Origin: Alphaproteobacteria bacterium
Lineage (GTDB): Bacteria > Pseudomonadota > Alphaproteobacteria > TMED109
Direction: 5' to 3'
NCBI GenBank assembly: GCA_022819905.1
Contig: JAJEGJ010000118.1
Coordinates: forward strand, 1-47,464
DNA: 47,464 nt
The notes beneath the pieces are model-generated. The model saw only the letters and a list, made by a program, of their open reading frames with translations, was not told where the DNA came from and did no database searches. Both the position numbers and the translations under genes were made by a program. How positions within the stretch are numbered: the stretch's first letter is position 1; every line of letters begins with the position of its first letter. This document shows positions 36,106 through 43,349 of the stretch, piece after piece.

Positions 36106-37298
36106 GTGTCGAATCTCGCACTTATGGACGGGATGGAGCGTCTCGGGACCGAGAGCGCATTTGTGGTGCTCGGCCGTGCGGCCGAACTTGAACGGCAGGG
36201 TAAAGACGTCATCAATCTAGGCATCGGTCAACCAGATTTCCGGACTCCCGGCCATATCGTTGAAGCGGCCGTCGGGGCCTTGCGGGATGGCCATCACGGG
36301 TACACGCCAGCCAACGGAATCCTTCCGCTTCGAGAGGCAGTGGCCGCCGATATTTCCGTCCGCCGCAAAATCGAAGTGAACCCGGACCATGTGGTGATCG
36401 TTCCCGGGGGGAAGGTGACCATGTGGCACGCGATTCTCATGTTTGGTGCGCCCGGCCGAGAAATCATGTACCCCAACCCGGGCTTTCCTATCTATGAATC
36501 GGCGATTCGATTTACCGGCGCGACACCCGTGCCGATTGCGTTAGCGGAGGCAGACGGATTCACATTCGACCCCGACGAAGTGCTTGGACAAGTAACGGAG
36601 AAGACGCGACTGATTATTGTCAACAGTCCCGCCAATCCCACCGGTGGCGTGATCCCAGTTCCAGTGCTCGATCGGCTTGCAGAAGGACTCGCCGATCATC
36701 CGCATGTGGCCGTCCTTTCCGACGAGATCTATTCGCGCATCGTGTATCCGGGCTCTGAATTTGCGTCGATGCTGCGCTACTCGCATCTCCGTGACCGTCT
36801 CATCATGCTGGATGGATGGTCCAAGACCTACGCCATGACAGGTTGGCGCATCGGATATGCGATTTGGCCGGAATCGCTTGTTGAGCACGCAGTACGATTG
36901 AACATCAACTCGGTCAGTTGCACGAACGCTGCGACACAGCATGCGGCAATTGCTGCGCTGGAAGGTCCCCAGGACGATGTCGACGCGATGGTCACTGCAT
37001 TTGCCGAGCGCCGTGAGGTGTTGATCGAAGAGGTCAAGACACTTCCCGGGTTGCGGATGATTCGCCCAGAGGGCGCGTTCTACGCCATGCCTAACGTCGA
37101 AGGCACCGGCATCCCGGCGTTGGAATTGCAGGATCGACTGCTGGAGGAGCTGCACATTGCGACGGTGGCTGGAACCAGCTTCGGTGCTCTGGGCGAGGGC
37201 TACATCCGTTTGAGTTACGCTGCGGGCGTCGACGAGATCCGCACGGCCATGAAACGAATTCGCCAGTTGGCTGTAACCGAGGGGTGGGGCCACCACTA

Positions 37299-37299
<1 letters not shown>
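36106..37299 (+). CDS. Class I/II pyridoxal-phosphate aminotransferase
   Basis: PLP enzyme of fold type I, probably aspartate or broad-specificity aminotransferase. It is 397 residues long from the GTG at 36106, which lies seven bases after GGAGGG. Conserved parts: [31 protein letters not shown], the cofactor ring region, [11 protein letters not shown] (Asn and Pro of the substrate pocket), [11 protein letters not shown] with the Asp and Tyr that hold the cofactor, [16 protein letters not shown] with the Schiff-base Lys, and EGYIRLSYA with the substrate carboxylate Arg. The last base of the stop codon is the first base of the uvrB start, so the pair is coupled. Exact substrate is not determinable. 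Confidence 0.9.
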
Positions 37300-39410
<2,111 letters not shown>

Positions 39411-39411
39411 C

Positions 39412-40185
39412 GTGGGGAGCGATTCTGGTCGAGGAATGGCCCTGGTGACCGGGGGGGGCCGCCGCATCGGCGCAGAATTGGTGAGGGCGCTTGCACGGCT
39501 TGGATACCCGGTCGCGATACATCACATGCGCTCCGGAAATGCGGCGTCAAGACTTGTCAAGGAGATAGCAGATGGTGGAGGCGTGGCTCACGCGTTCTCT
39601 GCGGACTTGCGATCGGACGAAGCTGCACAACAGCTATTGCGGGCGGCAACACAGCAGCTTGGTCCTTGTACGATCTTGGTCAACAATGCTTCGCATTTCG
39701 CCCACGACACGCTGCTTACCGGAACTCGGACGTCCTGGGACGACCATCTCGAGCTAAACCTCAGAGCTCCCTTGGTACTTAGCCGTGTGTTTGCAGACCT
39801 GCTGCCTGCCTCCACATCTGGCCTGATCGTCAATCTGCTGGACCCCAGAGTTTGGACTGTGACGCCGCACTACCTTTCCTACAGCGTGAGCCGGGCGGGC
39901 CTGTGGGCCGCGACCCGCATCCTTGCCCTGGAATTGGCCCCGCGAATTCGCGTCAATGCGATCGGCCCCGGGCCGACACTGTCCAGCCAGTCTGAAGGAG
40001 AGGCCGGTTTCCGTGCCACACGCAACCGACTGCCGCTGTCACCTGGTCCGTCGCCGGAAGATATTTCCGACGCGCTGGTTTACCTGGTCAGCGCGAAGTC
40101 AGTTACCGGGCAGATGATTGCACCGGACGGAGGCCAGCATCTTGGCTGGCTTCACCCTGCGCCAGATGAGCCGGTCCGTGGCTGA
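39412..40185 (+). CDS. Short-chain dehydrogenase/reductase, FolM/pteridine-reductase-like
   Basis: NADPH-dependent reductase of the SDR family, 257 residues. The N-terminal TGGGRRIG matches the T-G-x3-R-x-G loop of pteridine reductases and FolM, rather than the usual T-G-x3-G-I-G; with folB next door, reduction of dihydromonapterin or a related pterin is likely. LVNNASHF, and the C-terminal TGQMIAPDGGQHLGW are typical. In the active-site motif Y-x-x-x-K the Lys is replaced by Arg (YSVSR). It begins with GTG one base after uvrB ends and overlaps folB by 20 bases. Confidence 0.85.
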   Translation: MGSDSGRGMALVTGGGRRIGAELVRALARLGYPVAIHHMRSGNAASRLVKEIADGGGVAHAFSADLRSDEAAQQLLRAATQQLGPCTILVNNASHFAHDTLLTGTRTSWDDHLELNLRAPLVLSRVFADLLPASTSGLIVNLLDPRVWTVTPHYLSYSVSRAGLWAATRILALELAPRIRVNAIGPGPTLSSQSEGEAGFRATRNRLPLSPGPSPEDISDALVYLVSAKSVTGQMIAPDGGQHLGWLHPAPDEPVRG

Positions 40186-40531
40186 CTCTCGCACACTGCT
40201 TGTCCAGGGTCTGGAAGTTGAATGCCTGATTGGCGTCCATCGGCATGAACGCAGTAGTGTGCAGCGCGTCCTTGTCAGCGTCGAGTTGGAGGTCGAGCCA
40301 AATCGACACGGCGATGACCTCAAGCGCGTCGTCAGTTACGAGGATGTAGTAGTGGCCGTCCGGCGCTTGGCGGCAGACGGCCATATCCAGTTGGTCGAGA
40401 CGCTTGCCGACCGTGTAGCTACCTGTTGCCTCGGTTTTGACGGCGCTGTCAGCGTCAATGTCACGGTGCTAAAACCTGACGTGCTCCCCGATGCGGCCGC
40501 GTTGGGAGTAAGGGTGCGGCAGACTCGTTGA
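40166..40531 (+). CDS. folB: Dihydroneopterin aldolase
   Basis: Folate-pathway enzyme that cleaves 7,8-dihydroneopterin to 6-hydroxymethyl-dihydropterin and glycolaldehyde. The 121-residue tunnel-fold protein shows LLVQGLEVECLIGVHRHER (substrate Glu in GVHRHER), YEDVVVAVRRLA, the VETLADRVA segment with the catalytic-site Glu, and the C-terminal active-site Lys in VTVLKPDVLPDA. ATG 40166 lies inside the end of the preceding reductase gene; GTG 40178 is an alternative. Confidence 0.9.
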   Translation: MSRSVADSRTLLVQGLEVECLIGVHRHERSSVQRVLVSVELEVEPNRHGDDLKRVVSYEDVVVAVRRLAADGHIQLVETLADRVATCCLGFDGAVSVNVTVLKPDVLPDAAALGVRVRQTR

Positions 40532-40837
40532 AGCCTGATTATGCAAGATGCAAGCGCTACCAACCTGTAGTTGCAGCACTTTTATTCACAAGAGGTAAGT
40601 TTCGTGGTGTGACTGACCAACCAGAGACACCAATCCGGCAGTCGCAGCTTGATCGAGAATTGGGATCACTGGATTAGTATTGTAATTCAACCGGTTAGAA
40701 TCTCATGACTATACTTAGCAATTGCGCTTTCCAAGCAGTTTATCCATTAGACACAAGCGATTGAGCGGGCCACGGTGAGTTTTTCCACAAGGTTTTCCAC
40801 AGTGCCGGTTCAGCGATAAATCGAGGGGAGCGGTTGA
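40532..40837. other. A+T-rich intergenic region with DnaA-box-like sites (oriC candidate)
   Basis: This 306-bp gap holds three exact matches to the relaxed DnaA box TTWTNCACA on the same strand: TTATTCACA (40582-40590), TTTTCCACA (40781-40789) and TTTTCCACA (40793-40801), the last two 12 bases apart. A weaker TTATCCATT is at 40740-40748. Between them lies an A+T-rich stretch (about 40655-40750) in an otherwise GC-rich window. A 12-of-13 match to the IHF consensus (ATTCAACCGGTTA, 40685-40697) and a GANTC methylation site (40698) lie in it. These are ingredients of an alphaproteobacterial replication origin. The alternative is a DnaA-responsive promoter of uvrC. Flanking genes all point the same way, which is not typical of an origin. 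Confidence 0.45.
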
Positions 40838-42793
40838 TTGCCCGCTTTCGGCAAGTCAAAGTCAGGCATGGAACCGCAAACATCTGGTCCTTTGAAACAC
40901 TTGACTCCGTCCGATCGATCTGGCGCCGGCCCGAATGCAGCTGGGCAAAGCGACCTGCAAATCGGGGCGGAAGTGGTGCGCGCCGCAGCGCGCTCACTTC
41001 CTTCCAGACCCGGCGTCTACCAGATGGAAGCGGCAGATCGGGAAGTGCTGTACGTGGGAAAGGCACGTGTGCTGAGGAACCGGGTGGCCACGTACTCGTC
41101 GGTTCAACGTTTGCCGATCCGTCTTCGGCGGATGATCGCACAGGTCAGACATGTCGAGTTCACGGTGACGGAACACGAAGCCGAAGCGTTATTGCTAGAG
41201 GCCAATCGAATCAAGAAGCTTCGGCCTCGATACAACATCCTTCTGCGGGATGACAAGTCTTATCCCTACATTCACCTTCGCACCGATCATGCATGGCCCC
41301 AACTCCTGAAACATCGAGGACGCAAGCGAAGGGACGGTCACTATTTTGGACCGTTTGCCTCTGTCCGCGCCGTCAACGTGACCTTGAACGCCCTCCAACG
41401 TGCGTTTCCCTTACGCACTTGTACCGATCGGGAATTTGAGGCGCGTGACCGACCCTGTCTCCAGTATCAAATCCGTCGCTGTTCCGCCCCTTGCGTCGGG
41501 AAAGTCGAAGATTCCGAGTATGCCGGATTTGTCGAACACCTGAGGCGTTTCCTGGGCGGCGGCGGCAAAGAAGTTCAAGCATCCTTGCGCTCCGCCATGG
41601 ATCGTGCCAGCGCCGATTTAGAGTTCGAACGCGCCGCGGTCCTGCGAGATCGGATTCAGGCGCTGAATACCATCCAGACTGCCCGCGGCGGTGATTTGCA
41701 ACATGTGGGCGATGCGGACGTTTTTGCCGTCGCGGAACAGGGCGGGCAGATCGCGGTCCAGGTATTCTTTTTCCGGGGCGGCAGCAACTTTGGCAATCGC
41801 ACGCATTTCCCGATGCACGGCAAAGAGATTCCTCCTGCCACGGTGCTGGGGGCCTTCATTTCCCAGTTTTACGACACCCAAGCACCGCCGGCGACCCTGC
41901 TGCTCAACGAGAAAGTGCCGGACATGGAACTGTTGGCGGAGGCGCTTTCCATCAAGGTCGGGCGGCGTATCGCGATCCTTGTGCCGCAGCGGGGCGACAA
42001 ACGACAGGCGGTGCGCGCCGGCGAAGACAACGCGAAAGCCGCGTTGGCTCGCCGCATCTCCGAACGTTCCAATCAGCTGGAACTACTGGATGCCTTGGTG
42101 GAAGTCTTCGGCTTACCGCATGTACCACGGCGCGTTGAGGTCTTCGACAACAGTCATTTGCACGGGACCCACCCAGTGGGAGCAATGATCGTCGCCGGGC
42201 CGGACGGCTTTGCGAAAGCATCGTATCGCCGGTTCAATGTCCGAAACGCCGACCCCAGTGATGACTACGCGATGATGCGGGAAGTACTGCTGAGGCGCTT
42301 CAAGAGACTCCAGCGCGAGGATCCAGACCGGAGCAAGGGGCAATGGCCAGACCTGGTTCTGATCGACGGAGGCGCAGGTCACCGCAGTGCCGCGGTCGCG
42401 GCGTTGCGAGAAGTCGGAATCAGCGGACCTGCTGTCATCGGTGTTGCCAAGGGGCCGGACCGCAATGCAGGGCGGGAGCTCTTCTACGCTGGCTTTGAGC
42501 GCCCAATCTCGCTAGCCACGGATGACCCGGTACTGTATTTCCTGCAGCGACTTCGCGACGAGGCGCACCGGTTCGCGATCGAAGGACACCGTGCTCGCAG
42601 ACTGCGTGCGGGAATACAGTCGGAACTGGATCAATTGCCAGGTATTGGGCCTCGCCGCAAGCGGGCGCTGATCTTGCATTTCGGCTCGCTCCGGGCGATT
42701 CGAGATGCGACATTCGCCGAATTGCTGCAGGTAGAAGGCATCAGTGCGACAGTGGCCCGCACCATCCACGATCATTTCTCCAGCGATGTCTGA
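40838..42793 (+). CDS. uvrC: UvrABC excision repair endonuclease subunit UvrC
   Basis: Makes both incisions around a DNA lesion bound by UvrB. The 651-residue protein has an N-terminal GIY-YIG nuclease domain (RPGVYQMEAADREVLYVGKA), the Cys-rich region CLQYQIRRCSAPCVG, a UVR domain (LEFERAAVLRDRIQAL), the RNase H-like second nuclease domain (VEVFDNSHLHGTHPVGAMIV with the catalytic Asp, and DLVLIDGGAGHRSAA) and a C-terminal helix-hairpin-helix pair (LDQLPGIGPRRKRALI, LLQVEGISATVARTI). TTG 40838 was chosen because GAGGGGAG lies seven bases upstream; the ATG at 40868 has a weaker site. uvrB lies 1.4 kb upstream. Confidence 0.95.
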   Translation: MPAFGKSKSGMEPQTSGPLKHLTPSDRSGAGPNAAGQSDLQIGAEVVRAAARSLPSRPGVYQMEAADREVLYVGKARVLRNRVATYSSVQRLPIRLRRMIAQVRHVEFTVTEHEAEALLLEANRIKKLRPRYNILLRDDKSYPYIHLRTDHAWPQLLKHRGRKRRDGHYFGPFASVRAVNVTLNALQRAFPLRTCTDREFEARDRPCLQYQIRRCSAPCVGKVEDSEYAGFVEHLRRFLGGGGKEVQASLRSAMDRASADLEFERAAVLRDRIQALNTIQTARGGDLQHVGDADVFAVAEQGGQIAVQVFFFRGGSNFGNRTHFPMHGKEIPPATVLGAFISQFYDTQAPPATLLLNEKVPDMELLAEALSIKVGRRIAILVPQRGDKRQAVRAGEDNAKAALARRISERSNQLELLDALVEVFGLPHVPRRVEVFDNSHLHGTHPVGAMIVAGPDGFAKASYRRFNVRNADPSDDYAMMREVLLRRFKRLQREDPDRSKGQWPDLVLIDGGAGHRSAAVAALREVGISGPAVIGVAKGPDRNAGRELFYAGFERPISLATDDPVLYFLQRLRDEAHRFAIEGHRARRLRAGIQSELDQLPGIGPRRKRALILHFGSLRAIRDATFAELLQVEGISATVARTIHDHFSSDV

Positions 42794-43349
42794 AGCCAAC
42801 CCATTGAACGCGGCCTTGCTGGTGACCTGCGGGCGTATCGTTCTGGTAATTCCCTTCGTAGCGTGTTTCTATTTGCCTGGGCCTTGGGGGGTTTGGGGTG
42901 CCGGCAGCATATTTGTTGTGGCGGGCATCAGTGATGCGCTGGATGGATGGATGGCCCGTCGCCTGAACATGGTGACCAAGCTTGGGGCGATCCTGGATCC
43001 GGTTGCGGACAAGATCATGCATGCGGCAGCACTGATCATGCTAGCTGCAGATGGTCGCGTTCCGGCGCTGGCCGCAGCAATATTGATTGCCCGCGACTTC
43101 CTGGTGGGCGGCTTGCGGCAAATGGAGGAAGGCAGGGGAGTGTTGACCGTCTCACTCGTCGCCAAAGCCAAGACAGCATTGCAGTTCCTCGCCCTAAGCA
43201 CGATCTTGCTGGCGCCGGGCGTAGCGACAGTTGAATGGCTTGCCGCCGCCGGATTGGGGCTCCTGTGGACCAGCGTTGCACTTAGCATTTGGAGTGGCAG
43301 TCTCTACACCTTGAGATTCGTCCGTGTCCTGAACTCGGAGCGAACTTGA
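42786..43349 (+). CDS. pgsA: CDP-diacylglycerol-glycerol-3-phosphate 3-phosphatidyltransferase
   Basis: Makes phosphatidylglycerol phosphate, the first step to phosphatidylglycerol and cardiolipin, from the CDP-diacylglycerol supplied by CdsA. The 187-residue membrane protein carries the CDP-alcohol phosphotransferase motif exactly as D-x2-D-G-x2-A-R-x8-G-x3-D-x3-D (DALDGWMARR with GAILDPVADK) and four to five hydrophobic spans. The ATG at 42786 overlaps the uvrC stop by 8 bases, the common alphaproteobacterial uvrC-pgsA arrangement. Confidence 0.94.
   Translation: MSEANPLNAALLVTCGRIVLVIPFVACFYLPGPWGVWGAGSIFVVAGISDALDGWMARRLNMVTKLGAILDPVADKIMHAAALIMLAADGRVPALAAAILIARDFLVGGLRQMEEGRGVLTVSLVAKAKTALQFLALSTILLAPGVATVEWLAAAGLGLLWTSVALSIWSGSLYTLRFVRVLNSERT

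Follow-up and report, generated by a model that had tools for sequence, protein, structure and literature searches.

What is the short A+T-rich gap that precedes uvrC in this alphaproteobacterial genome, and why does it carry a cluster of DnaA boxes? We analysed the gap within a stretch of 47,464 nucleotides, hereafter the window, for which the original prediction had proposed either a chromosomal replication origin or a site that titrates DnaA or places a promoter under its control. A pattern scan of the 47 kb window recovered the three exact TTWTNCACA boxes that had been described on one strand, at 40582, 40781 and 40793, all on the plus strand, and these were the only exact matches that it contained. 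The one-mismatch IHF site was found as claimed, as was the A+T-rich composition of the gap (GC 0.47 against 0.62 in the window); given that composition, the expected number of exact boxes in the gap is about 0.023. The weaker box placed at 40740 has to be redrawn: TTATCCATT keeps only seven of nine columns among relatives, whereas an overlapping weak box, TTAGACACA, keeps all nine. The features of the gap and its surroundings are as follows.

37284 to 39410, plus strand: uvrB (NF003673, 1024 bits), about 1.1 kb upstream of the gap
40118 to 40531, plus strand: folB-like gene (TIGR00525, E 9.8e-16, below cut-off; TIGR00526 above cut-off)
40556 to 40576, no strand assigned: invariant 21-mer GCTACCAACCTGTAGTTGCAG, directly upstream of box A, holding CTAC-N6-GTAG
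40582 to 40590, plus strand: distal DnaA box A, TTATTCACA, exact match, invariant in seven congeners
40680 to 40808, plus strand: match to profile R1, from IHF site to core (24.6 bits local; E 7.2e-5 genome-wide)
40685 to 40697, plus strand: predicted IHF site ATTCAACCGGTTA, one mismatch to WATCARNNNNTTR
40747 to 40755, plus strand: weak DnaA box TTAGACACA, one mismatch, 9/9 columns invariant in seven congeners
40781 to 40789, plus strand: DnaA box TTTTCCACA, core box III by profile alignment or II by distance to the IHF site
40793 to 40801, plus strand: DnaA box TTTTCCACA, 12 bp past 40781, core box II by profile alignment
40807 to 40815, minus strand: place of the inverted core box (box I of E. 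coli DARS), absent in the window
40838 to 42793, plus strand: uvrC (TIGR00194, E 1.4e-158), with an in-frame ATG at 40868
42744 to 43349, plus strand: pgsA (TIGR00560, E 1.8e-37; PF01066)

The folB-like gene ends where the gap begins, and the other end of the gap hinges on the start of uvrC, either TTG at 40838 or ATG at 40868. Because pgsA overlaps the end of uvrC, the two probably form one operon. Single exact boxes mean nothing in this genome, since their number (30 in 3.6 Mb) is near that of a reversed-pattern control (36) and therefore at chance level. Their clustering is another matter: three of the 30 fall inside 220 bp, an arrangement that about 8e-5 of random placements give. When the gap was aligned among seven congeners, a comparison that could have revealed loss of the boxes, all four boxes were invariant, whereas the spacers kept 16 of 94, 15 of 42 and 15 of 25 columns; invariant boxes between long spacers that have mostly changed indicate that the sites are under selection. 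The 21-mer beside box A was invariant in all 21 columns of the same alignment, and we recognised no known site in it. A comparison of the gap with plasmids found no similarity.

The same arrangement recurs upstream of uvrC across the class. Among 110 alphaproteobacterial uvrC loci, a count that includes the congeners and a few duplicates, regions of up to 600 bp upstream held a forward box in 75 cases, a reverse box in three and a control pattern in one; after removal of near-duplicates, 65 of 97 upstream regions carried a TTWTCCACA box. Exact second boxes occurred only at fixed distances from the core box (-12, -199 to -203, -211 to -213 and, once, -241), the two main distances being roughly one helical turn apart. 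When a single mismatch was tolerated, 53 box matches fell at -195 to -215, against 3-4 in neighbouring stretches of equal length; most alphaproteobacterial elements have a box at a distance matching that of box A (-196 to -213). Near -99, 52 of 64 uvrC-upstream elements had a match to the IHF consensus with no more than one mismatch, compared with 0-6 of 64 in control stretches; neither of these two position tests selected on the feature being tested. Most elements also have the palindrome TTGCCTAwwwwwTAGGCAA between the IHF site and the core, which fits the Fis consensus quoted in PMC4585315, and most of those outside the window's genus have an inverted box, cGTGGATA, at +14 from the anchor. 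The usual element thus reads as a distal DnaA box, an IHF site about 100 bp further on, a Fis-consensus palindrome and a three-box core with offsets of 12 and 14 bp, the offsets of the E. coli DARS1 and DARS2 cores.

The element is close to unique in copy number and in location. A strict motif, TTATCCACAGNNNNSGTGGATA, was present as a single copy in 45 of 289 genomes, against none for the control, and 25 of the 30 loci fetched adjoined uvrC. We built profile R1 from 47 elements, from IHF site to core; it matched 291 of 385 alphaproteobacterial genomes (about three quarters), mostly with one match each, and 219 of 299 genomes in a phylum-wide sample through which the gammaproteobacteria were covered, but as the profile derives from uvrC-upstream sequences picked for a core box and an IHF site, these counts measure spread and not independent discovery. 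R1 loci adjoined uvrC in 28 of the 30 best matches and in all 15 checked pairs, the 15 all on the same strand, and the match in the window is the only one in its genome. Several alphaproteobacterial families had no R1 match in the class and phylum-wide profile searches. Several genomes outside the class had more than one match; G439, G675, G678 and others had several DARS-type profile matches each, up to nine. One locus outside the class (L347) lies at uvrB. Separately, a full DARS-type core was seen away from uvrC at L221:1501-1522 (G033:C162), flanked by ndk and by a divergent CDP-alcohol phosphatidyltransferase gene, with a weak DnaA/Hda-like match about 2.5 kb from it.

Comparison with E. 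coli identified the nearest known relatives. R1 scored 32.3 bits on DARS1, 18.9 on DARS2, 18.5 on datA and 18.1 on oriC; the window copy, at 24.6 bits, stands modestly above the last two. DARS1, which lies in the bioD-uvrB gap and in the promoter region of uvrB (PMC5835720), has on the other strand a box III, a box II 12 bp on and an inverted box I a further 14 bp on, and DARS2 is laid out likewise. DARS1 and the alphaproteobacterial element share this three-box core and its offsets, a near-identical core sequence (TTATCCACAGGAATaGTGGATA against TTATCCACAGGAATcGTGGATA) and a position beside a uvr gene; the alphaproteobacterial element differs in adding an IHF site, a Fis-like palindrome and a distal box A, and in sitting at uvrC. 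DARS2, upstream of mutH, shares the core geometry. Measured from its core box II, an IHF site stands at about 95 bp and a further DnaA box at about 197 bp; a Fis site is present as well, and DARS2 needs both IHF and Fis (PMC4245941). It differs in that its Fis site is farther from the core than the IHF site, its distal box has the other orientation and its gene neighbour is another one; in addition, a stand-alone Fis was not found in the present set, where HTH_8 matches lay mostly in long open frames, with a few short, weak ones. On these grounds we favour, with moderate confidence, the reading that the gap carries, in the form found in this genus, a DARS-type chromosomal element for DnaA regulation that precedes uvrC-pgsA in Alphaproteobacteria. 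The earlier suggestion of a DnaA-titrating or DnaA-controlled site came near to this reading without coinciding with it: the boxes and the IHF site are conserved in the genus, and the DARS-core geometry is present in most alphaproteobacteria.

The copy in the window departs from the usual form. The inverted pair of boxes I and II at 14 bp, present in most other alphaproteobacterial elements, is missing here, with one of nine columns at its place invariant in the genus; none of the seven congeners has inverted box I, whichever box assignment holds. If the boxes at 40781 and 40793 are III and II, they have the 12 bp spacing and common orientation of a DARS core. The distance to the IHF site would also allow 40781 to be box II and 40793 an added direct box: 40685 is 96 bp from 40781 and 108 bp from 40793, against about 95 bp at DARS2. 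The spacing from box A to the IHF site, 103 bp, is the usual one, and no Fis-consensus palindrome was apparent in the window. Among the genes of the genus are those for IHF beta and further HU/IHF paralogs. Because it lacks inverted box I, a defining feature of the DARS core, we do not class the window copy as a DARS; having two exact direct boxes 12 bp apart instead, it is a derived relative of the DARS-like element. Judged by its sites, it probably still assembles DnaA with IHF, its DARS activity is doubtful, and it may titrate or inactivate DnaA instead of recharging it.

We then weighed other accounts of the gap. The first is that DnaA and IHF simply regulate transcription of uvrC-pgsA, in the way that DnaA and LexA act on uvrB in E. 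coli, and leave DnaA itself unaffected. Almost without exception uvrC follows the element on the same strand, a constant proximity that suits plain promoter control, uvrC and pgsA overlap, and DnaA regulates uvrB in E. coli (PMC6015884). The distance from element to uvrC, however, varies between about 50 and 550 bp, which does not look like a fixed promoter layout; 5 of the 30 motif-bearing loci had no uvrC within the stretch examined; the only promoter-like match in the gap was a single weak one on the minus strand; and the core keeps the geometry of a DARS. We therefore regard promoter control as an unlikely explanation by itself, and it is compatible with a DARS-type element, given the position of DARS1 in a promoter region.

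A second account takes the element to act as datA does, with IHF joining DnaA on box A to DnaA on the core so that ATP is hydrolysed, or with the boxes only titrating DnaA. In E. coli, datA needs two DnaA boxes with an IHF site between them (PMC5835720), and these are same-strand boxes 162 bp apart; box A and the core boxes are also on one strand and flank an IHF site, box A is oriented like datA box 2, which counts against the DARS-type reading, and the window copy has direct boxes only. The spacings differ, with about 200 bp in the element and flanks of about 100 bp on each side of the IHF site in the window; datA has no DARS-type core, whereas outside the window's genus the element has one, with the inverted box at +14; and datA matches R1 weakly, over positions 58-119 only. 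A datA-like site seems improbable to us.

An RNA leader or small RNA upstream of uvrC, with the palindromes as hairpins, is very improbable: the boxes are strand-biased and the two arms of TATCCAC-N6-GTGGATA, which could pair, have changed in concert in L072 and L087, but there was no Rfam match up to E 1, the features are consensus sites for DnaA, IHF and Fis, and the box A distances (about 189-190, 199-203 and 211-213 bp) are close to whole helical turns. Rfam families were accordingly rejected as candidates.

That the gap is the chromosomal replication origin we now hold to have almost no chance, in spite of the box cluster, the A+T-rich gap and the IHF site, because the skew speaks against it, as do the position of the element in other genomes and the existence of a better candidate on another contig. 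DnaA boxes with an IHF site are indeed what the gap shares with a bacterial oriC, but it does not lie at a skew minimum: GC skew is positive on both sides within the window, with no minus-to-plus switch. In G036 the skew minimum falls at dnaA, with uvrC mid-arm at a distance of 1.2 Mb; the equivalent element is mid-arm in G188 and G066 too. The skew of the complete genome G313 (CP070634.1) was erratic and that of G041 weak, and neither was used. A skew minimum elsewhere, named at the outset, together with a coverage peak, as grounds against an origin here, was present in the window's own genome (G000), on contig C13 at about 100-105 kb. Close by, at 106700-107312 (L353:6700-7312), an A+T-rich gap of about 0.6 kb runs from rho to ppsR-aroE-coaE-dnaQ and holds four DnaA-box matches, two of them exact and inverted. 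The ppsR-aroE-coaE-dnaQ neighbourhood is typical of alphaproteobacterial origins, whereas the gap in the window has folB and uvrC-pgsA beside it. The true oriC of this genome is likely to be on C13 at about 107 kb.

Some further observations concern the replication landscape of the genus. In two congeners, G003 and G006, the maximum of cumulative skew falls about 6-9 kb downstream of uvrC, where the skew switches sharply from positive to negative (G003:C1 at about 85-90 kb; G006:C117 at about 100 kb); this switch is terminus-like and marks a candidate terminus. A full dnaA gene was not found in the G000 assembly; all six congeners carry one, on other contigs, and its absence here is probably an assembly gap. 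Exact TTATCCACA boxes lie close to contig ends of the same assembly (C13:55, C20:76026, C30:3297 and C98:370) and are perhaps part of a repeat that breaks it.

We return to the DARS-type element, which, with its conserved sites and fixed geometry, does not lie at the origin. From its architecture we infer binding of DnaA and IHF, looping and nucleotide exchange. By bending the spacer DNA, IHF would bring DnaA bound at box A into contact with DnaA at the core; by analogy with DARS, the resulting complex might alter the nucleotide state of DnaA through release of ADP, and the changed state would tune initiation at the distant oriC. More tentatively, we propose that Alphaproteobacteria recharge DnaA at one ancestral DARS-type locus before uvrC, combining a core of the E. 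coli type with IHF bending and, in place of Fis, another protein that binds the Fis-consensus palindrome, and that the sponge-associated relatives have converted this locus to a direct-repeat form. Such a locus could tie the recharging of the initiator to excision repair and to phospholipid synthesis. Acidic phospholipids, the products of pgsA, have been suggested to recharge DnaA, and since the locus adjoins pgsA, the coupling to phospholipid synthesis is conceivable.

Recharging of DnaA has been worked out in E. coli. Fis and the core of DARS2 have been described as specific to gammaproteobacteria related to E. coli, although one review notes DARS-like sequences in many proteobacteria; our literature search returned no report of such a DARS-type site at uvrC. 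An element that is usually single-copy, present in about three quarters of alphaproteobacterial genomes and found at a predictable place makes restoration of active DnaA directly testable. So, too, are the questions of why in each of two classes the site is next to a uvr gene, uvrB in one and uvrC in the other, and which protein replaces Fis.
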